NCBI GenBank assembly: GCA_030592625.1
Contig: JAUVIY010000066.1
Span: 1-10,546, forward strand
Direction: 5' to 3'
Length of the DNA: 10,546 nt
From: Spirochaeta sp.
GTDB taxonomy: Bacteria; Spirochaetota; Spirochaetia; DSM-2461
The notes beneath the pieces are model-generated. The model searched no databases, was not told the origin of the DNA, and saw nothing but the letters and a program-made list of their open reading frames with translations. Below are positions 1 through 10,546 of this stretch, one piece after another (position 1 is the stretch's first letter; each line of letters begins with the position of its first letter). Made by a program: the position numbers and the translations under genes.

Positions 1-1094
1 ACTAAATTGCCCAGGGGAGCTTCTCCCTTCCTGATATTCTCGTTATCGAAGAAATCGCCGGCGTCGCCGATAACTTCGGAGAGTTTAGCTTCCACCTGAT
101 CGTAGTAGGGGGTGAGGGCTGCCAGCAGATAGGGATCTTCAGGAATTTCTTTGTCGACGTAGGTGTAGAAGGTGTTGCCGTCGGCGTCTTTCTCACGGTT
201 CTTCAGATTGACCGGGATGGCTTCCCAATCGAAATCGGTGACGTCGCCGCCGGTGACGGTGATGACGGCTTTGCCCACCCACATGCCCCATTGCCAGGCC
301 TGGACGATGGGTGTGCCGTTTTCCCAGACCGGTTCATCAAGTTTCGAATGACTGTGGCCGTCGATGATGAGGTCGATACCATCGACATTCGCGGCCACTC
401 TGCGGGATCCCAGGGTATTGTTGTCGTAGAGCCCCATGTGGACCAGGGCGATGATGATGTCCACCTGAGGTTTGAGTTCGGCAACCATGCGTCGTGCCAC
501 GGTGACTTCATCATCAAAAAACAGATTACCGGTGATGGTGGGCGTAGTGACCATGGGGGTTTCGGCGGTGGTGAGGCCGAAGATTCCCACCCGGAAGCCG
601 TTATAAGTCTTGATTATGTATGGTGCTTCAGCCACCAGAGAGCCGTCGGGATATCGGACGTTGGCCGACAGGAAAGGGAAACTGGCCATCTGTATCTGGT
701 CTTCCAGAGTGGCCAGGGGTTTGTCGAACTCATGGTTGCCCAGTGTCATGGCGTCATAACCGATGTAGTTGTAACCGATGATGTCCGGTGCCGTTTCGAA
801 GAAATTCGACTCCGGCCGACCGGTATTGATATCTCCGGCATCCAGGATGAGCACATTGTCGTACTCGTCCCTGATGTCCTGAGCGAAAGTGGCGATGGCC
901 GGCAGCCCCCCGACATCCGGTGCCGGATAGTTGTAGAACTTCAGCGGATGACCGTGAAGGTCGTTGGTGTGTAATACTACCAGTTCACCGGATCCATTCA
1001 GCGGACCCTCGACAACCCCGTTCGCCATGAGGGCGAAGGGGAGGGCGGCCAGGAGCAGTACGGCCGCGACGAAACGAATAATACGTTTGTTCAT
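1..1094 (-). CDS. 5'-nucleotidase / UshA-family metallophosphoesterase, exported (C-terminus outside window)
   Basis: The frame read leftward from the ATG at 1094-1092 is open for 364 codons to the window edge, so the gene is partial. Seen: a basic start MNKR, a hydrophobic stretch to about residue 23 and a likely signal peptidase site after ALMA. Then come the dinuclear-metal motifs of the calcineurin-like fold in order: HTNDLHGH (42-49), DAGD (85-88), GNHEF (119-123), H219 in LVHMG and GHSHS (246-250). This is the UshA/5'-nucleotidase catalytic domain. Family knowledge: such enzymes are exported and remove phosphate from nucleotides or UDP-sugars to salvage nucleosides and phosphate. The C-terminal substrate-binding domain would start near residue 330 and is mostly missing. 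GGAGG lies just upstream of the ATG (CCTCC on the plus strand near 1101), supporting this start. The exact substrate cannot be told. Long open frames on the opposite strand here are shadows. Confidence 0.93.
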   Translation of the reverse strand, partial: MNKRIIRFVAAVLLLAALPFALMANGVVEGPLNGSGELVVLHTNDLHGHPLKFYNYPAPDVGGLPAIATFAQDIRDEYDNVLILDAGDINTGRPESNFFETAPDIIGYNYIGYDAMTLGNHEFDKPLATLEDQIQMASFPFLSANVRYPDGSLVAEAPYIIKTYNGFRVGIFGLTTAETPMVTTPTITGNLFFDDEVTVARRMVAELKPQVDIIIALVHMGLYDNNTLGSRRVAANVDGIDLIIDGHSHSKLDEPVWENGTPIVQAWQWGMWVGKAVITVTGGDVTDFDWEAIPVNLKNREKDADGNTFYTYVDKEIPEDPYLLAALTPYYDQVEAKLSEVIGDAGDFFDNENIRKGEAPLGNL

Positions 1095-1345
1095 AGATTT
1101 CCTCCAGGAAAATAAGGAACTAATTCTAATGCTTCCGGGAGCGGAAAAGAACGATTGTATCGCAATATATCCGAGGATTTGTAAAAGTTTGCTTAATGAA
1201 GCCTCTGAGGGATATGGCACTGACATGAAGGTAACGGGAGTTACCCGGCCCGGCTCCTGAATGCCGTGAATGCACTCCGGGGTTGAATAAGTAAACGGGC
1301 ACGACTCTTGCATCAGTAAGAAGTACACTGACCATGGAGGACCAC
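1095..1345. other. Divergent intergenic region with a short inverted repeat
   Basis: This 251-base gap separates the divergent nucleotidase and PrsW genes and must hold both promoters. I found no convincing -35/-10 pair for either. The one clear structure is GGTAAC-GGGA-GTTACC at 1230-1245, a perfect 6-bp inverted repeat with a 4-base spacer, which could be an operator half-site pair or a small hairpin. TGAATGC occurs twice at 1258-1264 and 1267-1273. Open frames crossing this gap look non-coding: no ribosome site and no recognisable protein. Confidence 0.4.
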
Positions 1346-2458
1346 ATGTCCGCCGGATTTTACCGGATTTTCTGGATCATTTCTCTGCTCATTTCCATCT
1401 CCGGGGCCTGGCTCTGGCTGAAAATCGTCACCCGGGCGGATCCGAGATGGCGGGATAAGGGGCACCGCTGGTATCTCTATGTATTAGCAGGAGTAGTGTC
1501 CCTGTATCTGTCAAGGATATTCTATCTTTTTGGTTTTCTGATCACCGGTGGCGGATTCTATTCGGCCTATGCCGCTGCCGATGATTTCTGGTTCTACCTG
1601 CTTATCAACGGACCGGCGGAGGAATGGGGAAAGTTCCTTGTTTTCTGGATACTGGCAAAAGGGTTCGGCCGGGTGAAGGAACCCCGGGACGGTATCATCG
1701 TTGCGATGATGGTGGCCCTGGGATTCAGTCTTTGGGAGAATGTCAATTACCTCCTTATCTACGGTATCGATGTGATTCCCACCCGGCTCATCTGGGCATC
1801 CTCCGGACATATGGCCTATGCGGCGGTGTGGGGGTACTTCGCAGGACAGGCCATCCTCGAACCTCCCGAAGGAAGCGTGCTGATGCGATACCGTTATGTC
1901 CTGATGGCGGTGTTCGTAGTTTCAATTGTTCACGGTCTGTTCAATTTCCTTTCCGGCTGGGTCGGTACAGGCGCTGCCCTGGCGCTGGATCTGCTGATGT
2001 ATGGTACAACCCTGTTGATGTTGGTTCAGGTATGTAAAGTGCCCAGCGCATACCAGGCTTTTCCCTATGAAAAATCGGCGGCAGCGGTGAAAGCCATCCG
2101 TTCGGCTTTAATCAGGGATCCGGAAAACATCCTGCTCCATAAGCGGCTTGGATTCTCCGAGTTGTTCATAGGCAGGGAAGAAGCTGCACTGGCCAGTTGG
2201 GACAAAATCGCCTTTACCGACAGAGGACCCTACCTGAACGCCTGGGTGGGAATCCTGGAAGCTCGACGAGGCCGGGGGAGGGTAGGCCGACGTTCTGAAG
2301 GCGGGCTTGAGAAACTTCTCGCATCCATGCCGTCGGACAGCCGAACCACGTTGAAGCGCCGACTCCGGTTTTTTCTGAAAGACCAGGGTTCGGAATGGAT
2401 CCGTCGGATCGAAGATTGGGAGCGCCAGGCTGAGACCCGCCGGGGGTATACATGTTAG
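1346..2458 (+). CDS. PrsW-family intramembrane protease with C-terminal helical-repeat tail
   Basis: A 370-residue membrane protein with about seven hydrophobic segments in its first 230 residues. The PrsW signature is visible: GPAEEWGK with E92, E93 and K96; GFSLWEN with E131 and N132; H155 in SSGHMAY; and HGLFNF with H196 and N200, all within predicted membrane helices. Family knowledge: PrsW of Bacillus cuts the anti-sigma factor RsiW in the membrane; relatives occur widely with unknown substrates. Residues ~245-370 are soluble and helical. The part around LIRDPENILLHKRLGFSEL...EEAALASWDKI resembles a TPR-like repeat and could bind a partner. I chose the ATG at 1346 over 1334 because GGAGG (1336-1340) sits 5 bases before it and lies inside the longer version. 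No sigma or anti-sigma gene is adjacent, so the substrate is unknown. Repeat copy A begins 3 bases after the stop. Confidence 0.87.
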   Translation: MSAGFYRIFWIISLLISISGAWLWLKIVTRADPRWRDKGHRWYLYVLAGVVSLYLSRIFYLFGFLITGGGFYSAYAAADDFWFYLLINGPAEEWGKFLVFWILAKGFGRVKEPRDGIIVAMMVALGFSLWENVNYLLIYGIDVIPTRLIWASSGHMAYAAVWGYFAGQAILEPPEGSVLMRYRYVLMAVFVVSIVHGLFNFLSGWVGTGAALALDLLMYGTTLLMLVQVCKVPSAYQAFPYEKSAAAVKAIRSALIRDPENILLHKRLGFSELFIGREEAALASWDKIAFTDRGPYLNAWVGILEARRGRGRVGRRSEGGLEKLLASMPSDSRTTLKRRLRFFLKDQGSEWIRRIEDWERQAETRRGYTC

Positions 2459-2460
2459 TG

Positions 2461-2637
2461 TGGTGTCCCGTAAATACGTTTACGAACTTACAATTGAATA
2501 CCATGAGCGTAGCTACCCTGAATCGTTGCGACAAGCACCCCCCGTTCCGACGAACTTCGGGGCACTGGTCTCCACGACTCCGGGTAACTCCACCTTATTA
2601 CCTCTTTATATCTTGTTGTCAAATTTCCGGGACACTA
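2461..2637 (-). repeat. Fold-back repeat, copy A (177 bp, TIR-bounded)
   Basis: The outer 18 bases, GTGTGGTGTCCCGTAAAT (2458-2475), match the reverse complement of 2623-2640, GTGTAGTGTCCCGGAAAT, at 16 of 18 positions. An inner arm, CTACCCTGAATCG (2513-2525), pairs with 2575-2587. The centre is CCCC-GTTC-CGAC-GAAC-TTC-GGGG (2540-2562). Most of the element can thus fold as one long imperfect hairpin. Read on the minus strand it aligns along its length with copy B (6670-6847), sharing TCGTGGAGAC, GGAACG and GCAACGA. It has no coding capacity and fills most of the 188 bases between two convergent genes, so it could also serve as a two-way transcription barrier, though no T-tract follows the hairpin. 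No clear target-site duplication is visible. Confidence 0.8.
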
Positions 2638-2646
2638 CACGAGTTT

Positions 2647-4083
2647 TCAGGCCACCGAACTCCGATCTTTTACTTCTGATGTATCAGCTGTCGTTGTTGC
2701 CTTTTTCAGTACTCCCCGGTAAGGCATGAGCATGAAATCCTTCATGTTGACCACCATCTTACGATTGATCGGCGGGAAAGACGTTATCAATCCGATAAGC
2801 CTGAACATCATCAGACGCAGCGGTTTCTTGTGGGGCAGGGTTTTATAGATGCCGTTTTTCCGATAGTACTTGTGGTCCCCTCGGAACACGATGCTCAGGC
2901 GGGTGTAGATGTCGTCCCTGAATATTTTGATACCTCCGACGCCGAGGAAGGTGGCCGGGCGGAGGTAGTCTTTCTTCAGGGCCAGGGCGATCCGGCGGGT
3001 CAGGGAATCGGTAGCCGCATCGACTTCTGATGCGTTCCCGCTCATCGTGGTGACGATACCGTTCAGACTGCCCCCCTGCCATTCGACGAAACCGGTAAGT
3101 CCATCCCTGAGGGCGGGATTGGAGGTGATATCCCCATCCAGGAGTACCGCGACCTGTTTGCCGTTCAAGAACGGCTGGTGGGTGTGGAAAAATCCCCGAT
3201 CGATGAAAGATTTCATCAGCGACGAATACCACCGTCTCTTTATCGTGGCCGCTATGACGAAAACATCCGCTGGATGAATTTTCTCGATATAGGTATTTAT
3301 CACATCGTCGGTATTCCCATAGCGGCAGACATTCTTCGGGCCGCAATGCAGGCAGCCCATACAACCCCCTGCAATCCTGAGTTTCCGGAGGTCAACAATC
3401 TCCACATCATCCTCGAAGGTGGAACTGAAGCGATTAATCAAGGTGGCCAGGCGGCCGTCGGTGGAATCGGTGACAATGGTGATCCGCTTTCCCGTCCTGA
3501 GGGGCTCAGGGTTCATGGTTGCTGACCCGGGATTCGGTGCCGGTTCATCAGTTGCGGTTCCCCGGGGGGGAAATATACGGACCACCGGAGCGCCGTTCCC
3601 GATGGCGTCCATAAATGTGTCAAAGAATCCCTCGAGAGCCCTTCGTCCCGCCGGCTTCATCAGATCGTTCATATTGGCCGAGTGGCTGTCGACGAAAGCC
3701 ATCCCCAGATCCTCACTGACGGCCCTGATGAAATCGTGGGCTGTGTTGTCGAAAAAATGTATGGAAGTGGACAGGGCCGCGGCAGGTTTTCCGGCAAAGG
3801 CCCCTCCGGCCTCTCTCTCATCGATCAGTTCGATGAACCTGTGGTATTGGCTGCAGACCGAATGAACGTAGAGCGGGAATGCCCAGAGCACCCCGTCGGC
3901 CTGACTGACGGCTTTGATGATGTCATCGAATACTTCAGGACTTTGCTCAAGACGCCGTATCCTGAAAGCCGGTTGTTTCACATCGAAGCTGACCTCGGGA
4001 AACTTGAGTTTCAGATACTCCACATACTGCATGGTGACGCTCTTTTCACCCTTGGGGCTTCCCCCCAATACGATCATTTTCAT
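2647..4083 (-). CDS. Tandem flavodoxin-fold NAD(P)H/FMN reductase-like protein with a Cys cluster
   Basis: 478 residues with two flavodoxin-like domains. The first (about 1-165) begins MKMIVLGGSPKGEKS, a beta strand plus phosphate-binding loop typical of FMN reductases, and has ADGVLWAFPLYV (62-73). A proline-rich linker (about 172-195) leads to the second domain (about 198-375), ITIVTDSTDGR onward, which carries CMGCLHCGPKNVC (C241, C244, C247, C253) followed by DD. This resembles the cysteine motif of iron-sulfur flavoproteins and related NADPH-dependent FMN reductases. A basic tail of about 100 residues follows, unassigned. Expected role: cytoplasmic FMN-dependent electron transfer to a quinone, nitro compound or metal; substrate unknown. 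The ATG at 4083 overlaps the stop of the PadR gene (ATGA) and has GGAGGAGAAGGA before it, so the pair is translationally coupled. Only the second domain keeps the Cys motif, so the first may have another role. Confidence 0.82.
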   Translation of the reverse strand: MKMIVLGGSPKGEKSVTMQYVEYLKLKFPEVSFDVKQPAFRIRRLEQSPEVFDDIIKAVSQADGVLWAFPLYVHSVCSQYHRFIELIDEREAGGAFAGKPAAALSTSIHFFDNTAHDFIRAVSEDLGMAFVDSHSANMNDLMKPAGRRALEGFFDTFMDAIGNGAPVVRIFPPRGTATDEPAPNPGSATMNPEPLRTGKRITIVTDSTDGRLATLINRFSSTFEDDVEIVDLRKLRIAGGCMGCLHCGPKNVCRYGNTDDVINTYIEKIHPADVFVIAATIKRRWYSSLMKSFIDRGFFHTHQPFLNGKQVAVLLDGDITSNPALRDGLTGFVEWQGGSLNGIVTTMSGNASEVDAATDSLTRRIALALKKDYLRPATFLGVGGIKIFRDDIYTRLSIVFRGDHKYYRKNGIYKTLPHKKPLRLMMFRLIGLITSFPPINRKMVVNMKDFMLMPYRGVLKKATTTADTSEVKDRSSVA

Positions 4084-4664
4084 CTTTCCTTCTCCTCCAA
4101 AGCTTTTATTGTCTCGGCGCACCAGTCTCTGATTCCTGAGTAATGGTGCAGACCGAAATCTACTGTGTGTCGCCAGTACGGCGTGCCCTCTTCCAGAACA
4201 GGTCGGGCTTCCTCGGGTACCTCGTTGATTTCATCGCAGGAATCCAGATGATCCCGGATACCTTCCAGTTCATCGATAATGGTTCTGCAGCGCTCATCTT
4301 CAGCCCGAATTTTGGCACTGATGAGTTCCGGATTCGCCCATTGGCCGAAGAACACCTGCAGAAGGAGTTCTTCCCGGAGAATGGCGGGTTCCGGCGGGCG
4401 GGTCAGCCATCGGGAGAATGCCGATCGGCCTTCTTCGGTGATGGTGTAGACCTTGCGAGTCGGGGTGCCGTCCTGTTCTTCCCGGGTCATGGTTACCAGG
4501 CTCTCGGCTTCCATTTTCTTCAGCACGGGGTAGATATTCCCGTAATTCTCGTTCCAGAAATGACCGATGCTGTGGTCGCTCATCTTCTTCATGTCGTAGC
4601 CGCTCATGGGTTTGTAGGTGAGCATCCCCAGCAGGGCGTAACGGGTTTTATTTTCCCGGGGCAT
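4080..4664 (-). CDS. PadR-family transcriptional repressor
   Basis: 194 residues. The N-terminal winged helix reads YALLGMLTYKPMSGYDMKK, then the signature NIYPVLKKMEAESLV (43-57) and the wing RKVYTITEEGR (70-80), all typical of PadR. The second half (about 95-190) is helical, as in PadR proteins with the longer Vir-type dimerisation domain. Family knowledge: these are ligand-responsive dimeric repressors that often control an adjacent efflux or detoxification gene as well as themselves. Start at 4664 is preferred over the ATG at 4676, because GGAGG lies 5 bases upstream of 4664 and inside the longer version. The stop overlaps the flavoprotein start. A perfect palindrome and a strong promoter lie just upstream, so autoregulation of the whole operon is likely. 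The ligand is unknown; a phenolic, quinone or drug would fit the reductase partner. Confidence 0.93.
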   Translation of the reverse strand: MPRENKTRYALLGMLTYKPMSGYDMKKMSDHSIGHFWNENYGNIYPVLKKMEAESLVTMTREEQDGTPTRKVYTITEEGRSAFSRWLTRPPEPAILREELLLQVFFGQWANPELISAKIRAEDERCRTIIDELEGIRDHLDSCDEINEVPEEARPVLEEGTPYWRHTVDFGLHHYSGIRDWCAETIKALEEKER

Positions 4665-4675
4665 GGTGTCCTCCA

Positions 4676-4689
4676 TTGATATATATCAA
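4676..4689. promoter_or_regulatory. Candidate PadR operator, perfect 14-bp palindrome
   Basis: TTGATATATATCAA is a perfect palindrome placed 12-25 bases upstream of the PadR start, just behind its ribosome site and downstream of the predicted transcription start. A second, overlapping symmetry, TATATC-AAACA-GATATA, spans 4682-4698. PadR dimers usually bind AT-rich palindromes near their own promoter. The symmetry is seen; binding is inferred. Confidence 0.6.
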
Positions 4690-4705
4690 ACAGATATATA
4701 AATAG

Positions 4706-4734
4706 AATATATAACCAAGGGATCAATTTGTCAA
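4706..4734 (-). promoter_or_regulatory. Sigma70-type promoter of the padR-flavoprotein operon
   Basis: On the minus strand the -35 is TTGACA (4734-4729, perfect consensus), then a 17-base spacer and -10 TATATT (4711-4706, 5 of 6). The predicted transcript start is near 4698, giving a leader of about 35 bases with the palindrome inside it. This is the best promoter in the window, and such a strong promoter usually needs a repressor. Confidence 0.72.
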
Positions 4735-4769
4735 CCTTCAATTTCGATTACAGCAAAATCCCATCACGA

Positions 4770-4798
4770 TTGACTTTATACTCACATTGCCGTATGTT
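4770..4798 (+). promoter_or_regulatory. Possible sigma70 promoter of the DEAD-box helicase gene
   Basis: TTGACT (4770-4775), a 17-base spacer and TATGTT (4793-4798) point toward the helicase, with a predicted start near 4805 and a leader of about 67 bases. The -10 has only 4 of 6 consensus bases, so this is tentative. Confidence 0.4.
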
Positions 4799-4871
4799 CG
4801 CCCCATCAATCGGGATTCCCACATAACCAAACCAACCGCCGATCAGGAATCCCAAGGTGAGGACAATTTTA

Positions 4872-6629
4872 ATGACTTTTGACGAACTGGGCCTTATCCC
4901 GGCCCTGCTTGAATCTATTCATGCGCGCGGATTTGAAACTCCTACGCCGATCCAGGCAGAAATGATCCCATTCCTCCTGAACGAGGATAAGGATGTTACC
5001 GGCCTGGCCCAGACTGGAACCGGTAAAACGGCAGCTTTCGGGCTGCCCATACTTCAGAGAATAGATACGTCCGTATCGAGAACCCAGGCCCTCATTCTGG
5101 CTCCCACAAGGGAGCTCTGCCAGCAGGTGTCCCGGGATATTACCGATTACGGCCGGACTCTGAAGGGTCTTCGGACCACAACGGTGTACGGCGGTGCGGC
5201 TTTCGGCCCCCAGATCCGCGACCTACGGGCCGGCGCCCATGTGATTACAGCTACTCCCGGGCGACTCAAGGACCTCCTGGACAAAGGCATCGCCGATCTG
5301 AGCAGCCTGCGCTTCCTGGTTCTCGATGAGGCCGATCAGATGCTTGATATGGGCTTCAAGGACGAACTGGACGCCATACTGGAATCCGCTTCCGCCGACA
5401 GGCAGACCCTGCTGTTCTCCGCCACCATGCCACCGGATGTGGCCCGCATCGCCAGGAACTACATGACGAATCCCCATGAAATCGTCGCCGGTGAGAAAAA
5501 CAAGGGCATATCCACCGTCGATCACCGTTTCTACAGGGTGCATGCCAGTGACAAGTATGCCGCTCTGCGCCGTCTCATCGATTTCCAGCCGACTATCTAC
5601 GGTATTGTTTTCTGCCGAACCCGGGACAGCGTCAAGGACATCGCCTCCAGGCTGGGCCGTGACGGTTATGCCGCCGATGCCCTCCATGGAGAACTCTCCC
5701 AGGTGCAGCGGGACTCGGTGATGAGTCGATTCCGCCAGGGCAACCCTTCCCTTCTCATAGCAACCGACGTTGCCGCTCGCGGTCTGGATGTGGATAACCT
5801 CACTCATGTCATCCATTTCGACCTTCCTGACGAGGCTGACGTATATAACCATCGCAGCGGACGAACCGGGCGAGCGGGGAAATCCGGCTCATCCCTGGCC
5901 CTTGTGCATATGAGAGAAGGCCACCGCATCCGGCGGATCGAGAAAGTCCTGGGCCGCCGTATCGAAGAGTCCAAAATCCCCGGCGGCGGGCAAATCTGCG
6001 AAACGCGTCTGATGAACCTTATCGATCGGGTCACCGAAGTCGAAGTGAATGATGAAGCCATCGCCCCATATCTGGATGACGTCAGAGAGAAACTCGATGG
6101 CATGGACCGTGAAACCCTGCTTCGCAGGTTCGTTTCGGTGGAGTTCAACCGATTCCTGAAAGAGTACGGCAGCGCCCCGGATTTGAATCCCCCTCCGGCA
6201 CCCAAACGTACCCGTCGGGACTCCGAATATTTCGGCGGCCGGGATGGCGGTGGGAGCTTCCAACGCGGCGGCCGGTCTTCAGGCGGCATGGTCCGCCTTC
6301 GCATTAATCTTGGACGTCGTCAGGCCGTGCTCCCGCCTCAGATTATAGGGCTTATAAATCAGGCGACCCGTACGAGGAATATTCGCCTGGGCCGCATTGA
6401 CATCAATACCGATTGGTCCGATATCCAGGTGGAAGACTCCATGGCCGATCGTGTGGAGCAATCACTCAGGAGATATGACTATAAGGGAATGAAAATCCGT
6501 GTAGAGCGTGGAGCCGATGGCCGGGGCGGCTACTCCCACAAAGGCCGCCGCAGTTCCGGTCGGAACGACAAGTATAACAAGTTCGGCAAACCCGGGCAGA
6601 CCCGCCAGGGCAAGAAGCGGAAGGGATAG
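4872..6629 (+). CDS. DEAD-box ATP-dependent RNA helicase (DeaD/CsdA-DbpA type)
   Basis: 585 residues with all core motifs: Q motif GFETPTPIQ (20-28), I AQTGTGKT (46-53), Ia PTREL (78-82), Ib TPGR (128-131), II DEAD (152-155), III SAT (183-185), IV IVFCRTR (245-251), V ATDVAARGLDV (297-307) and VI HRSGRTGRAG (327-336). Residues 474-547, VRLRINLGRR onward to GMKIRVERG, match the DbpA-type RNA-binding domain, and a basic Gly/Arg/Lys tail follows. Role by family: ATP-driven unwinding of RNA in ribosome assembly and RNA decay, often cold-induced. The start at 4872 is chosen because the Q-motif phenylalanine follows at once (MTFDELGL) and GAGG lies 9 bases upstream; a GTG at 4857 is in frame but lies within that ribosome site. 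The last codons overlap a degenerate tandem repeat, so the basic tail may vary between strains. It may be deaD, but the choice among paralogues is uncertain, so no symbol is given. Confidence 0.95.
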   Translation: MTFDELGLIPALLESIHARGFETPTPIQAEMIPFLLNEDKDVTGLAQTGTGKTAAFGLPILQRIDTSVSRTQALILAPTRELCQQVSRDITDYGRTLKGLRTTTVYGGAAFGPQIRDLRAGAHVITATPGRLKDLLDKGIADLSSLRFLVLDEADQMLDMGFKDELDAILESASADRQTLLFSATMPPDVARIARNYMTNPHEIVAGEKNKGISTVDHRFYRVHASDKYAALRRLIDFQPTIYGIVFCRTRDSVKDIASRLGRDGYAADALHGELSQVQRDSVMSRFRQGNPSLLIATDVAARGLDVDNLTHVIHFDLPDEADVYNHRSGRTGRAGKSGSSLALVHMREGHRIRRIEKVLGRRIEESKIPGGGQICETRLMNLIDRVTEVEVNDEAIAPYLDDVREKLDGMDRETLLRRFVSVEFNRFLKEYGSAPDLNPPPAPKRTRRDSEYFGGRDGGGSFQRGGRSSGGMVRLRINLGRRQAVLPPQIIGLINQATRTRNIRLGRIDINTDWSDIQVEDSMADRVEQSLRRYDYKGMKIRVERGADGRGGYSHKGRRSSGRNDKYNKFGKPGQTRQGKKRKG

Positions 6630-6665
6630 ACCCACAGGGATAGATCCGCCGGGAGCAGGTCCGCC
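6594..6665 (+). repeat. Degenerate 14-15-bp tandem repeats over the helicase stop codon
   Basis: Successive units are GGGCAGACCCGCC (6594), AGGGCAAGAAGCGGA (6607), AGGGATAGACCCAC (6622), AGGGATAGATCCGCC (6636) and GGGAGCAGGTCCGCC (6651). The helicase stop TAG (6627-6629) lies inside the third unit. The second unit is poorly conserved. Further units lie beyond repeat copy B at 6853-6882. Confidence 0.55.
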
Positions 6666-6669
6666 AGTA

Positions 6670-6847
6670 TGGTGTCCCGGAAATTTAGCGATAAGAAAAA
6701 AAGTTATATATAATGGAGCTGCCCAAAATCGTGGAGACAAGCCTCAAAGGCGAGTCCCGCTGGAACGAGGGGTACTTGCAGCAACGAGTCCGGACAGCTC
6801 CACTCACGGAATCCATTGTAATTCGTGAACTGATTTCCGGGATACCA
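6670..6847 (+). repeat. Fold-back repeat, copy B (178 bp, TIR-bounded)
   Basis: TIR TGGTGTCCCGGAAAT (6670-6684) matches the reverse complement of 6833-6847 at 14 of 15 positions. TGGAGCTGCCC (6714-6724) pairs with GGACAGCTCCA (6792-6802) with one mismatch. Inside, TCGT/ACGA, CAAG/CTTG, CCTC/GGGG and GTCCC/GGAAC continue the stem to a GCT loop near 6760. It has the same plan and nearly the same length as copy A (177 bp) but opposite orientation, with different bases in the stems and an identical TCGTGGAGAC (6729-6738). It starts 41 bases after the helicase stop, inside the tandem repeats. No coding capacity and no transposase nearby. Confidence 0.8.
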
Positions 6848-6852
6848 CTCGC

Positions 6853-6882
6853 AGGGGTAGACCCGCAGGGGTAATTCCCGGC
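6853..6882 (+). repeat. Continuation of the 14-15-bp tandem repeats after copy B
   Basis: Two more units, AGGGGTAGACCCGC (6853-6866) and AGGGGTAATTCCCGGC (6867-6882), match the units at 6622-6650 with mostly A/G changes. Copy B therefore appears to sit inside one array. The remaining bases up to 6943 show no further structure that I can support. Confidence 0.5.
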
Positions 6883-6943
6883 ATGCCTTCCTTTCTGTAA
6901 AAAGTTTTTCTTGACTCTCCTCCAGGGGCAGGGTTGAACCTTG

Positions 6944-6964
6944 CTTCATTGAAAATGAAGGAGG
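6944..6964 (+). promoter_or_regulatory. Small hairpin abutting a strong ribosome-binding site
   Basis: CTTCATT-GAA-AATGAAG (6944-6960) is a perfect 7-bp stem with a 3-base loop. Its last bases are the start of AAGGAGG (6958-6964), 6 bases before the ATG at 6971. In RNA the stem would partly cover the ribosome site. CTCCTCC at 6917-6923 could also pair with GGAGG. The gene served is broken, so any control is probably a relic. Confidence 0.4.
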
Positions 6965-6970
6965 TTTGAA

Positions 6971-7577
6971 ATGAATCGAAAATTCCGATGTTTTCCGGTA
7001 TTCCTCGCCCTGGCATTGGCTGGATGTTCCGCCGCTTATGTTCCCGGAGAAATATCCCGGGAACCGCCGCCGATTCAGACGGCAGGAGATGCGGCATTCC
7101 TGATGTCCGACGGAGTGCGTCTTCATCGAATTAGCATTCGGTCTGAGAATCCCGCCGCTCTCCCTCCCGTCCTTGTCATCCATGGTGGCCCCGGGATGCC
7201 TGCTCCCGGTACCTGGCCGGCCCTGGATGCGTTGGGCGAGATTGGTTCTCATTGCACCTGCATCGGTGGTCCGCATGCCTGTCGGGGATTCAGGACTGTA
7301 TTCCATCGTTGAAGGATATCTGTCGCGGGAAAATGTCGAAGCATATTCGGTCTGGCGGAAAGATTACTTCGACTACAAGTCCATTTGGGAACGGGATGAG
7401 AAAGAAAACATCGCATTGAATAACGGCCTGGGACCCTTCTGGGAAGAAGCGATGAAGAATTTCGCCATCGAAGCCGCAGAATCTGCTCCCGGAATCGAAC
7501 CATGGGGACAATCTGCTCCTTTTGACGATAATCTCACAGGCGGATGGATTCAACCGGCGGTTTTTCTGTCCATGGGC
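6971..7577 (+). pseudogene. Broken alpha/beta-hydrolase (prolyl aminopeptidase-like) lipoprotein gene
   Basis: The start is intact: a strong AAGGAGG, then MNRKFRCF, a hydrophobic stretch and lipobox LAGC (C19), so the parent was a membrane-anchored exported lipoprotein. Residues 67-75, VLVIHGGPG, and TWPALDAL are the oxyanion-hole region of proline iminopeptidase-like hydrolases. At about 7240 the frame goes wrong and stops at 7312. From 7239, two bases ahead in the next frame, homologous sequence resumes with RLVLIAPASVVRMPV...YLSRENVEAYSVWRKDYFDYKSIW and ends around GGWIQPAVFLSMG (7577). The roughly 100 residues that normally lie between, including the nucleophile elbow GxSxG, are missing, as is the end with the catalytic histidine. 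The product cannot be an active hydrolase. A lipoprotein fragment of 113 residues could still be made. Identification is from motifs only. Confidence 0.72.
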
Positions 7578-7919
7578 CGCCGGTGCTGTGTCGACGATAT
7601 ATCACGATCTTGAATTCAAAGAGGAAGACGCGGATGTGGAAGTCTGCCTGGCCATCAAGTCCGGCGCGGAAGATACCGTTGCCAAAGTGGTCACCAAGCG
7701 AAAAAAGGCGTTATCGACGGTGATATTCTGTCAGTCCGTACTTTCGATCCTCAGGAGGTTATCTCCCTGATCCACCAGGGGGAATACGATACCCTCACTG
7801 CCGCTTATGAAAAACTGATGGACGCGGTCGTTGAGCGAGGGCTTGAGATAGACGGCAATTGGAGTGATACGTATCTCAAGGGACCGGGAATACTGTTTCG
7901 GGGGAATCCCGGGAGATAA
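7573..7919 (+). pseudogene. Remnant of a GyrI-like effector-binding domain (MerR/AraC regulator C-terminus)
   Basis: From 7573 one frame reads WAAGAVSTIYHDLEFKEED, then ADVEVCLAIKSGAEDTVAKVV to about 7707. The next part, GVIDGDILSVRTFDPQEV then LIHQGEYDTLTAAYEKLMD and YLKGPGILF, is in the -1 frame up to TAA at 7917-7919. Together these look like a nearly complete GyrI-like/AraC_E_bind domain, the small-molecule sensor that follows the DNA-binding part of many MerR regulators. No HTH part is present; upstream is the hydrolase fragment in yet another frame. The frame change falls at A AAA AAG (7701-7707), where one missing A, or a -1 ribosomal slip, would join the halves. I read it as gene debris joined to the hydrolase by deletion, but the domain sequence is otherwise well kept. 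Confidence 0.68.
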
Positions 7920-7946
7920 CTGACCGAAGTGATCGTACTGGTGAAA

Positions 7947-7975
7947 GTGAAATGCTCTTGAGAATACGCTAGAAT
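7947..7975 (+). promoter_or_regulatory. Weak candidate promoter for the barrel-like protein gene
   Basis: GTGAAA (7947-7952), a 17-base spacer and TAGAAT (7970-7975) precede the gene. The predicted start near 7982 would leave only a short leader containing GGGGG. Four or five of six bases match at each hexamer; tentative. Confidence 0.25.
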
Positions 7976-7994
7976 AGTGATTGGGGGCGACTTC

Positions 7995-8609
7995 ATGTCC
8001 AGGTGGATTATTCTATCGATTATTCTCAACATACTCTCTACCGGCGCCTTGCATGCCGGAATTCCATGGACATATTCCCTTGGAGTATCCGGCCTGGATT
8101 ACACTTGGCTCGATGAGGATACCGGGAACTACATGCAGGAGCAGATGGTTGGTCTGGATATCCGTGGATCGGCAATCCTGAAACCGATGGGATTCTATTA
8201 CGGTACTTTCCTCAGTTTCGCCCGGCCTCTGCTCAATAGGGAATATGATCTGGTGGACGAAACTTCGACGGAGAATTCTTCCGGATATGATTTGTATATG
8301 TCTTTCGGCATTCCATTCGGTTATCGCTGGCAGTTGCCCCGGAGCTATACCGCCGTTTATCTCGGTTTAGGTCCGTCCATGCAGGGTCTGTTTGATTTCG
8401 ATAGCCATTTCTGGGGAAGCGGTGGACTCTTCTGGGAGTTCGGTGTTGAAACCCTCAGCTCCGAAGGAGTGGAAATAAGTATGGGTGCGCGGATGATTAT
8501 GGGATGGGAGTCCTTTGTTACCGACGGCTCCCGGGTTGCGGAACGTCCATCGGCAACGACATCAATTTTCTTTATCGGACTGAGCTGGACCGGTACTCGA
8601 GGATACTGA
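7995..8609 (+). CDS. Small exported protein, probably an outer-membrane beta-barrel
   Basis: 204 residues. MSRWIILSIILNILSTGALHA is a typical signal peptide with cleavage expected after ALHA. The mature part alternates polar and aromatic residues in short strands separated by Gly/Asp/Asn turns (for example YSLGVSGLDYTW, GFYYGTFLSF, YTAVYLGLGPSMQGLF, GGLFWEFGVETL, SIFFIGLSW) and ends close to an aromatic residue. This fits a small 8- to 10-stranded outer-membrane barrel. I do not recognise the family, and no function is claimed. The ATG at 7995 is preferred to a GTG at 7977: GGGGG lies 7 bases upstream and the signal peptide begins there. It is transcribed toward the phosphoesterase gene, with 13 bases between the two stop codons. 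Confidence 0.78.
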   Translation: MSRWIILSIILNILSTGALHAGIPWTYSLGVSGLDYTWLDEDTGNYMQEQMVGLDIRGSAILKPMGFYYGTFLSFARPLLNREYDLVDETSTENSSGYDLYMSFGIPFGYRWQLPRSYTAVYLGLGPSMQGLFDFDSHFWGSGGLFWEFGVETLSSEGVEISMGARMIMGWESFVTDGSRVAERPSATTSIFFIGLSWTGTRGY

Positions 8610-8622
8610 TTCCCAATCGAGC

Positions 8623-9357
8623 TCAGTCTTTCGGGGCCATGCGGTCTGTCAGAGATTCCGGGTATCCTCTCGATTTCATCTTTCTTCTTGTCGGATTGCG
8701 TTTCCAGGAACATCGTCTGAAGGTCATCAACTTACGTTCCGGATTGAGAATCATGTATCTGGCGGATAAATCTCCATCTCTTGATTGACCGACACTGCCC
8801 GGATTCGCCAGATGCGGGGTTCCTGAATAATTGACCTCTATTCCGTAATTAATATTTATGGACCGTGCTCCCCTACGGCCGTCATAAGCCCATAAGGCGG
8901 GCAGATGTGTATGCCCAACAAGTGTGAGGGATGTTACGGTTCCCTTGAGTACCCGGGCTGCTGCACCATCATTCAGTACATACCCCCATATCGGAGATTC
9001 GGGGTTACCATGAGCCAGGGTAACCGAACGTCGCTTAAGCGTTTCCGGGAGTGCCTCAAGATAGGATTTCTGACTTGCGGACAGGTATGCTTTGTGCAGT
9101 TCGACTGCCGCTTTCGCCTCCTCGTTGAAATTGTCGGTATCGATTTTTCCACATACGGCCCAGTCATGATTGCCGGCCACCATGACGGCCTGCCTCTTGC
9201 GGAGCAGCTCCAGACATGGCCCCGGATCGGGTCCGTATCCGGCAACATCACCGAGCATCCATATTTCGCCGAATAGTCCGGACGCATCCTTCATAACAGC
9301 CTTGAGTGCTTCAAAATTTCCATGAATATCGGCTATTACAAGTACGGGAAGGGACAT
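8623..9357 (-). CDS. YfcE/MJ0936-type metallophosphoesterase
   Basis: 244 residues with the complete metal-site series of small calcineurin-like phosphoesterases: DIHGN (10-14), GDVAGYGPDP (37-46), GNHD (62-65), HGNP (116-119), GHTH (148-151) and NPGSVGQSRDG (185-195). These are cytoplasmic, metal-dependent phosphodiesterases or phosphatases; in vivo substrates are mostly unknown. About 28 residues beyond the domain, rich in Arg and Lys, extend the C-terminus toward the convergent gene and may be a later extension by stop-codon loss. Start: ATG at 9357 with GGAGG 4 bases upstream. Divergent from the gene at 9390 with only 32 bases between start codons, so their promoters must overlap each other or the coding ends. 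Confidence 0.93.
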   Translation of the reverse strand: MSLPVLVIADIHGNFEALKAVMKDASGLFGEIWMLGDVAGYGPDPGPCLELLRKRQAVMVAGNHDWAVCGKIDTDNFNEEAKAAVELHKAYLSASQKSYLEALPETLKRRSVTLAHGNPESPIWGYVLNDGAAARVLKGTVTSLTLVGHTHLPALWAYDGRRGARSININYGIEVNYSGTPHLANPGSVGQSRDGDLSARYMILNPERKLMTFRRCSWKRNPTRRKMKSRGYPESLTDRMAPKD

Positions 9358-9389
9358 TCTGCCTCCAATCTCATTATAGTGGATGAAAC

Positions 9390-9965
9390 ATGTTTGAACG
9401 TTTGCGATCCCGAATGGGAGAAAAATTCGCCGATGTCTGGGTTCTCTTATCGGATACCGACCGTTTCGTTTCTCGCGCCCGTCTCATGATAAGGTATGAG
9501 AAGCAGCTCAGGGAATGGCGCTCCGGTTTGCAGCAAGCCGGGGGTGATATAGAAGGGACCAGGAAGATTCGTGAAGAAATCATCGCATTCCGCCGCGCCA
9601 GACGGGTCGAGGGCTGGGAGCTGCGTTTGGGATCTCTTGATATTCAGCTGAAGGGCTTTCGAAAGGATGATGCCATGTCAGTGGGATTTCGACGTATGGT
9701 GCTGATGGTGGGAGAACGTGGTGAAATCCGTTACGTCACCGGCAGCGTCAATCATATTGAGCTGGATCAGGAGATCAATATGCTGCTTCGGCAGTCACCT
9801 TCGGTGAATCCTCTCGATCCCCACTACCTCTGGTACCGGCGGATCGAAGGAGTTATCGAGCTGGCCGGTTCCGATTCACAGTCGGAGGATGCACAGGAGC
9901 GGCTCAAAATTTATATCGAGGAACATAAATCGGACCTTGTCGGAGCGATGTACAAACTCATTTGA
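9390..9965 (+). CDS. Hypothetical protein, 191 aa, unrecognised
   Basis: The frame is open with sensible codon use and is the only plausible gene here. The protein is charged, with no signal peptide or membrane segment. Residues 1-75 are basic and helix-prone (RLRSRMGEKF, RLMIRYEKQLREW, RKIREEIIAFRRARR). The middle, WELRLGSLDIQLKGF and RRMVLMVGERGEIRYVTGSV, looks like beta strands. The end, AQERLKIYIEEHKSDLVGAMYKLI, is helical. I do not recognise a family and propose no function. TATAGT (9375-9380) lies only about 10 bases before the ATG and the ribosome site is weak (GGA at 9381), so the mRNA may be almost leaderless. It may be co-transcribed with the AraC-type gene 85 bases downstream. Confidence 0.7.
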   Translation: MFERLRSRMGEKFADVWVLLSDTDRFVSRARLMIRYEKQLREWRSGLQQAGGDIEGTRKIREEIIAFRRARRVEGWELRLGSLDIQLKGFRKDDAMSVGFRRMVLMVGERGEIRYVTGSVNHIELDQEINMLLRQSPSVNPLDPHYLWYRRIEGVIELAGSDSQSEDAQERLKIYIEEHKSDLVGAMYKLI

Positions 9966-10050
9966 AAGCTTCGAATTCCGGCGGCGGTGAACGGCAGGGC
10001 GCGAGAGGTCAGTTTCCTGTTTTTCCACAGTAGACAGAAAATCGCTTTGA

Positions 10051-10434
10051 ATGTCTCAGGAACCGTCCGATAGGGAGGGGATGGAGGATCCTCTCGGACA
10101 GGCACGAAGGGCATTGTACGCCCGATTGGCAAGTCATTCCGATTATACCGGTCTGTTCACCCGTCCGGCGGTACTGGCAATTTCCGACGAAACCTCCGGC
10201 ACACTGCCGATACGAGCCTTGAATCGGGCCTGCAGGATACTCCTGATTGCGAATCCGGAAACTGTAAACGAAGATACAAATCTGGTGAGCCGGGTTGCCG
10301 ATGAATGCGGTTTCGGCGATGTGAATCATTTCATCCTTTTGTTCCAGAAGGCGACCGGATGGCATCCGGAAGAGTGGCACAGGAAGTTCGGCCGTGATAG
10401 TATGCCGAAATCGACAATGGAGGTATCAACATGA
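10051..10434 (+). CDS. Stand-alone AraC/XylS-type helix-turn-helix protein
   Basis: 127 residues. Residues 79-113 fit the second HTH of AraC regulators: VSRVADECGFGDVNHFILLFQ and KATGWHPEEWHRKF, keeping the diagnostic A83, C86-G87-F88, D90, H93-F94, F98, G103 and P106. LNRACRILLI (57-66) matches the linker helix (RxxxAxxLL) between the two HTHs. The first HTH should lie before this (about 20-56) but is much diverged or lost. There is no sensor domain. Start is uncertain: the ATG at 10051 has no ribosome site, while the ATG at 10081 has GGGAGGGG directly in front, a little too close. The protein could be a minimal regulator, a partner of a longer one, or a decaying fragment. Its stop overlaps the next ATG at 10431. 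The 85 bases before it show nothing notable. Confidence 0.72.
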   Translation: MSQEPSDREGMEDPLGQARRALYARLASHSDYTGLFTRPAVLAISDETSGTLPIRALNRACRILLIANPETVNEDTNLVSRVADECGFGDVNHFILLFQKATGWHPEEWHRKFGRDSMPKSTMEVST

Positions 10435-10487
10435 AACACCAGTTACGATGCTCCGAGGGAAAATATCTCCGGAGTTTCCGGCCTTAG
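10431..10487 (+). CDS. Very short reading frame overlapping the AraC-type gene (18 codons)
   Basis: ATG at 10431 overlaps the preceding TGA as ATGA and has GGAGG (10419-10423) 7 bases upstream, the arrangement of a coupled downstream gene. Yet the frame, MKHQLRCSEGKYLRSFRP, stops at 10485-10487. Either it is a tiny peptide, or a frameshift cuts a longer gene: a neighbouring frame from about 10480 to the window end is open (GLSDTAPRRRGGILTI). The window ends too soon to decide. Confidence 0.3.
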   Translation: MKHQLRCSEGKYLRSFRP

Positions 10488-10546
10488 CGATACGGCTCCC
10501 CGCAGACGCGGCGGCATCTTAACCATAATTGCCGAATCGCGACGTC

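Follow-up and report, generated by a model that had tools for sequence, protein, structure and literature searches.

Two fold-back repeats of a Spirochaeta contig are probable IS630-type miniature transposons with a covarying hairpin core

The window analysed here covers positions 1-10,546 of a contig of a Spirochaeta sp. draft genome (JAUVIY010000066.1, assembly GCA_030592625.1), and it carries two copies, A and B, of a short fold-back element. Both are, with high probability, non-autonomous DNA transposons of the IS630/Tc1-mariner superfamily, that is, miniature inverted-repeat transposable elements (MITEs). Specifically, they are short, lack a transposase gene, are bounded by terminal inverted repeats (TIRs), and belong to a set of several dispersed copies; their TIR is common to IS630-family elements (exact at loci L172 and L193, variant in G007, a genome of the same genus); and a TA target-site duplication is indicated by one clean filled/empty pair of sites (C318/C33) and by copies with TA on both sides. 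An IS630-type MITE is a known kind of element; new are a TIR common across phyla, a register of elements with stop codons, and a covarying core module that occurs beyond the transposon ends. The original prediction for this stretch had proposed a MITE-like element, which is borne out by further copies, by TIRs matching those at IS630 transposases, and by sites that hold the element in only one of two sister genomes. The features of the window are as follows.

2458..2640, minus strand (orientation of copy B as reference): copy A of the MITE, 183 bp, from TIR and alignment evidence
2458..2475, plus strand: TIR of copy A, GTGTGGTGTCCCGTAAAT
2623..2640, minus strand: TIR of copy A, GTGTAGTGTCCCGGAAAT
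2456..2458, plus strand: TAG stop codon of gene 1334-2458, read as the TA of the target followed by copy A's initial G, the TA duplication being deduced from one filled/empty pair
2501..2592, minus strand: predicted hairpin core of copy A (covariance model R1, 76 bits), which has lost the apical part by deletion
6667..6850, plus strand: copy B of the MITE, 184 bp, from TIR and alignment evidence
6667..6684, plus strand: TIR of copy B, GTATGGTGTCCCGGAAAT
6833..6850, minus strand: TIR of copy B, GAGTGGTATCCCGGAAAT
6714..6809, plus strand: predicted hairpin core of copy B (R1, 111 bits); the full core is longer by about 25 nt

Copies A and B

The two fold-back copies are present in opposite orientation, as predicted. 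The lengths first given for them, 177 and 178 bp, are slightly short, as comparison with relatives suggests that both elements extend about 3 bp further outward, to 183 and 184 bp. The claim that A and B align end to end holds against shuffled sequence, the comparison on which it had been staked: the reverse complement of A aligns globally with B at a score of 198, and 1000 dinucleotide shuffles give 70 ± 7 (maximum 97). The cores without TIRs score 139, with shuffles at 54 ± 6 (maximum 76). Both copies fold as a long hairpin, and the TIR arms of copy B (6670-6684 and 6833-6847) are 93% complementary, in line with the inverted repeats originally noticed. The only open reading frames (ORFs) overlapping either copy are short mechanical ones, which agrees with the stated lack of coding capacity. 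Searches of the whole window and of both copies gave no Rfam match; a weak sub-threshold match was seen away from the core, and the hairpin core itself matched no Rfam family.

Both copies follow stop codons, as had been observed. In particular, the first base of copy A is also the final G of the TAG that closes the upstream gene 1334-2458, the end of which differs from that in the related genome G008 by a few codons, while copy B begins 37 bp past the stop codon of the helicase gene 4857-6629. The left flank of copy B is CA instead of the expected TA, and probably represents a decayed TA target. The 14-nt direct repeats (AGGGATAGACCCAC-like) that lie on either side of copy B, at 6622-6649 and 6853-6866, look as if the element had inserted into a small tandem repeat. 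The two copies do bracket the padR/flavoprotein genes and the helicase gene, as the original prediction pointed out, and this arrangement is a coincidence, because the family is dispersed.

Copy number and distribution of the family

Further copies, sought in the genome and its relatives as the original prediction had proposed, are confined largely to two host drafts: that of the window itself (G000; 2.84 Mb, 438 contigs, 73% complete) and a sister metagenome-assembled genome (MAG) of the same genus, Spirochaeta (G004; 77% complete). A blastn search with copy B found further copies in G000 and, over 60 relatives at E ≤ 0.001, matches in G004 alone. R1, a covariance model made from 19 cores along the lines originally suggested, matched 22 times in G000 and 31 times in G004 with both strands counted. 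After merging of opposite-strand matches, the core places number 17 in G000, 24 in G004, and one each in G006 and G008 (4 of 61 genomes), and part of these places lack TIRs. The family comprises two subfamilies, measured copies span 93-261 bp from TGG to CCA, and some copies (C71, C376) have lost the core.

A scan of the phylum with another model, R2, gave G000 as the sole match in 392 genomes; it scored no more than 10 candidates in each genome, recovered nine of G000's own places and left G004 unmatched (presumably because that genome was not drawn), and it therefore says little about absence elsewhere. The module pattern matched four stretches of Viral_contigs, all of one phage sequence that neither has the fold nor matches R2; further scans of viral sequences gave no matches. 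At contig ends of G004, two different element copies (C54 and C442, at L059 and L064) have an identical outer flank, a hint that copies have recombined or that the MAG mixes strains.

TIRs shared with IS630 elements

A scan of the genome_contigs collection for exact TGTGGTGTCCCGGAAAT returned 55 stretches, 2 from G004 and 53 foreign to the genus. A second, inverted TIR (up to 5 mismatches) lies within 300 bp in 24 of the 53 foreign stretches, while the pattern read backwards has such a partner in 0 of 53. Most counts below use 21 foreign elements (L164 and L195, with 5 mismatches, were left out, and L197, also with 5, was retained); L218 was added later, making 22. The records are titled Acidobacteria (also Terriglobia), Proteobacteria, Auribacterota, Verrucomicrobia, Kiritimatiellae, Omnitrophota, Thermotoga MAG and others. 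The same TIR bounds short elements of several phyla, and their cores are unrelated: none of 54 comparisons (3 x 18) of genus with foreign cores was clear of shuffles (best z 4.0, score 17.0, shuffle maximum 17.5), and neither R1 nor R2 gave a convincing match on the foreign elements (best E 0.19 and 0.6). The TIRs of one Omnitrophota MAG stand nearly back to back, forming units of 42-54 bp that are hardly more than two inverted repeats (L168 3143-3184, L174 2740-2793, L191 673-714 and L218 1441-1482).

For the full-length transposon with the same TIRs that the original prediction had proposed to look for, foreign MAGs hold two candidates, one with a broken frame and one with a single visible end, and the host drafts yielded none. 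Specifically, tblastn with a piece of L172 over the foreign loci places an IS630 transposase beside the TIR at 2 of 53 (L172 and L193), both of which contain the TIR GTGTGGTGTCCCGGAAAT as an exact 17-mer; L185 also has an IS630 transposase, distant from its TIR. L172 (Nitrospira MAG) is an IS630 pseudogene with a broken frame, its ends GTGTGGTGTCCCGGAAAT and GTGTGGCGTCCCATTCAT lying about 1150 bp apart. At L193 (Acidobacteria MAG), where a single end is visible, the TIR begins 57 bp ahead of the ATG of an IS630 ORF that scores 276.6 bits against NF033545 (cut-off 100). Within the genus, two IS630 pieces of G007 lie at the ends of contigs and have the variant TIRs GTGTCATGTCCTGGAAAT and GTGTCGTGTCCCGGTAAT adjoining CTAG; we read the two as one split element. 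The IS630 of G000 itself ends in GTTTCCTGACTCTCAAAT and ATGTCCTGACCCGCAAAT, the latter with 5 mismatches to the TIR over 18 positions, so that this IS630 is an unlikely source of the partner enzyme.

Several observations weigh against assignment of the family to IS630-type MITEs. No transposase with matching ends was found in the incomplete G000 and G004 drafts, and the evidence for IS630 in G004 is one partial match of 33% identity. Among six sites not shared between the sister genomes (see below), five are not clean at both junctions and contain further indels. By our tally, just three genus copies (C28, C174 and C318) retain TA on both sides; TA on both sides is found in many foreign elements.

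A different origin, as palindromes mobilised by a Y1 transposase in the manner of REP/RAYT systems, would suit extragenic, palindromic elements at gene 3′ ends. This origin is highly improbable: the nine genus genomes contain a single Y1 transposase, which is IS200-like, lies in G000 and has no close TIR match in its surroundings; G004, the genome richest in copies, has none; and the TA/CTAG flanks and IS630-type TIRs point away from it. Hairpins of the type CACCGGCAAAGCCGGTG surround the IS200-like gene (L057, G000:C400) and are unrelated to the MITE. Inspection by eye for the R and L boxes that mark the ends of integron attC sites saw none.

Filled and empty sites

The claim that the copies are old holds at least for copy B, which occupies the orthologous site behind the helicase gene in G004 (a single 3.1-kb match, 87% identical). 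At C28/C282 the left 31 bp of the element remain in G004; at C174/C261, C436/C388 and C573/C208 element matches adjoin flank matches, as shared sites or remnants; and C71/C244 pairs, by eye, a 93-bp subfamily-2 copy in G000 with a subfamily-1 copy in G004. Six sites are without the element, or nearly so, in the sister: C318/C33, C442/C339, C493/C215, C411/C303, C288/C523 and C13/C454, the C13 copy having lost its right end.

C318/C33 is the sole pair clean at both junctions, reading CGT-TA-G...C-TA-ACG when filled and CGT-TA-GCG when empty. This fits a TA duplication by an element that starts in a purine and ends in a pyrimidine. Because of such ends, a TA duplication would make the outer four bases look inverted, not direct. 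A four-base target duplication was also considered and set aside: the outer 4-mers are often inverted rather than direct, for which the TA duplication accounts.

These sites bear on the terminator that the original prediction had entertained. Immobile, bidirectional transcription terminators between convergent genes would account for strong hairpins at gene ends; none of the seven terminator-like sites listed for positions 2400-7000 falls within copy A or B, however, and neither sites empty in the sister genome nor TIRs beside transposases elsewhere suit an immobile signal. We consider this explanation improbable.

Register with stop codons

Flanks were read at 42 genus and 42 foreign ends, at positions -5/-4 before TGGTGTCC; the end of C442, whose TIR has an extra G, was shifted one base outward by hand. 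Genus ends have TA (14/42), CA (10/42) or TG (8/42) at these positions, and foreign ends have TA in 29/42 and CTAG in 26/42. Stop codons that terminate an open stretch of 80 codons or more stand exactly 2 bases ahead of TGGTGTCC at 15 of the genus ends and 14 of the foreign ends; none of the remaining offsets between 0 and 30 is seen more than twice among the genus ends or among the foreign ends. The remade stop codon consists of the target TA and the element's first base, a purine. Counted per element, the register is present in 14/24 genus and 12/22 foreign elements, including C288 and L218, both without it; our tally before these two were added was 14/23 and 12/21. The core search later led to 16 further places, 12 of them with at least one readable TIR, and the register is present in 6 of the 12. 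L182 and L211 have identical flank letters and ORF length and look like one site in two MAGs, so the foreign elements are not all independent.

The background, taken as stop/(stop + intergenic), was counted in two ways: YTAR sites of the genus give 0.198 and 0.257, and CTAG sites of the foreign set give 0.296 and 0.406. Binomial tests give p = 2e-5 at a background of 0.2 and 0.002 at 0.3 for the genus elements (14/23), 0.019 and 0.12 at the same two backgrounds for the later copies (6/12), and 0.009 at 0.3 and 0.085 at 0.4 for the foreign elements (12/21). The stop-codon register exceeds background moderately in the genus and weakly elsewhere. Special targeting of stop codons was not adopted as an explanation, since the YTAR/CTAG target together with selection explains most of the register.

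Shortening of genes by a stop codon that the element supplies is ruled out at C318, C442, C493 and C13: the stop lies at the identical codon in an element-free relative (C318/C33, C442/C339, C493/C215, and C13 against G004 and G006), and these genes have therefore not been shortened.

The hairpin core

The core is predicted to be a structured module in which the stems covary and the internal loops are nearly invariant, and it occurs also outside recognisable transposon ends. An alignment of 21 copies shows two-sided changes at 13 of its 32 predicted pairs, compared with 6.2 in shuffles (0 of 500 reach the observed value) and 10 in one slid control. A further alignment, A4, holds 18 sequences, among them L230, one L244 hairpin and L245; its structure was drawn from the fold of one member, and 5 of the 23 cores considered were left out (C360, C38, C299, C378 and the G008 core). 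In A4, 22 of 36 pairs have two-sided changes; shuffles give 11.4 ± 1.6, none of 500 reaching the observed value, and slid controls do not exceed 8. Its covariation score is 0.369, compared with 0.156 in shuffles and a slid-control maximum of 0.082. The outer stem covaries at 11 of 11 pairs, and the unpaired GG, GTCGG, CGCT and GCA are invariant or almost so.

Four R1 places have no convincing TIR (L230 in G006, L231 in G008, L244 in G004 and L245 in G000), and R2 added TIR-less hairpins, a second one in L244 and one in L009. L230 and L231 represent one intergenic site, between two convergent genes, of two related genomes; they hold the core in opposite orientations, and the right arm of the L231 core is diverged.

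These properties raise the possibility that the core is a functional structured RNA, or a protein-bound hairpin, at gene 3′ ends that IS630 ends merely spread. Copies would then be retained for what a folded 3′ region offers, such as mRNA stability or a binding site, a proposal compatible with a MITE. The two-sided changes, the near-invariant unpaired segments and the cores without recognisable TIRs in G006, G008, G004 and G000 speak for it. Against it, palindrome repair by template switching can also yield two-sided changes; in subfamily 1, conservation is equal in unpaired and paired core columns (0.912 each, with the right TIR at 0.882 and spacers at 0.81-0.87); the core has no Rfam match; and C71 and C376 have dispensed with it. 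In seven divergent rows the unpaired columns appear somewhat more conserved than the paired ones (0.841 and 0.780). On balance we regard a functional core as a tentative, minority reading.

It is similarly conceivable, at about one chance in a few, that the core represents a new class of structured nucleic acid acting at gene 3′ ends as RNA or as a protein-bound hairpin. The class would be defined by the internal loops GGAG/UCGCA and GUCGG/CCGCUA, between stems whose sequence is almost unconstrained, and would be common to the IS630 MITE and to hairpins of the same genus without its TIRs. If so, a transposon would distribute a preformed 3′ structure and place it exactly at stop codons, and the occurrence of the core with and without transposon ends makes it testable whether MITEs spread functional folded RNAs.

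Proposed mechanism and comparison with known elements

For the IS630-type MITE, we propose that the GTGTGGTGTCCCGGAAAT inverted repeats are bound by an IS630-type transposase supplied from another location, whether at present, in the past or by a different genome, and that this enzyme excises the element and joins it into a TA, preferably inside CTAG or YTAR, with duplication of the TA. Target sites outside coding sequence would often fall in stop codons, where insertion would be harmless because the TA and the element's first purine remake TAG or TAA. Between the TIRs would stand a long imperfect hairpin with the conserved internal-loop module. We infer mobilisation in trans, and the insertion chemistry, by analogy with what has been reported for ISY100 and IS630; a further reference title on these elements is Tenzen and Ohtsubo (1991). 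The TA-plus-purine rule would explain how elements can lie flush against genes without shortening them, and one IS630-type inverted repeat appears to connect short elements of distant phyla.

The nearest known systems are four. ISY100 and IS630 use a TA target and duplicate it, IS630 favouring TA in CTAG (PMC2170065); the target is alike here, and the difference is that both are autonomous, with a transposase gene. RUP of Streptococcus pneumoniae (107 bp, AT-rich, numerous) is likewise a small gene-less TIR element with a TA target, and its mobilisation in trans by IS630-Spn1, which has similar ends, has been proposed (PMC2229807, PMC3049150); the present family differs in its TIR, in its G+C-rich hairpin core with covarying stems and in its hosts: no partner IS was found in the drafts that hold the family. 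Correia/NEMIS elements (107-155 bp, with hairpin transcripts and RNase III and IHF features) share the TIR organisation and TA at the termini and differ in TIRs and core (PMC2229807). The nearest precedent for the stop-codon register is BOX of S. pneumoniae, from which 36 of 58 overlapping genes draw their stop codon without clear truncation; unlike the present elements, BOX is a modular repeat linked to ISSpn2, not IS630, and the passages of that source on BOX do not state a TA-plus-purine rule (PMC3049150).

A search of the open literature for TGTCCCGGAAAT returned unrelated papers only. Titles and abstracts retrieved from the same literature for IS630 report no such stop-codon register, and neither "IS630" nor "stop codon" occurs in the text of a 2024 MITE review.

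Genes downstream of copy B

A lipoprotein-like, alpha/beta-hydrolase-like gene at 6971-7919 of the window is apparently broken into several short frames. The sister MAG is without this stretch, and copy B is there followed by a gene matching that at 7977.

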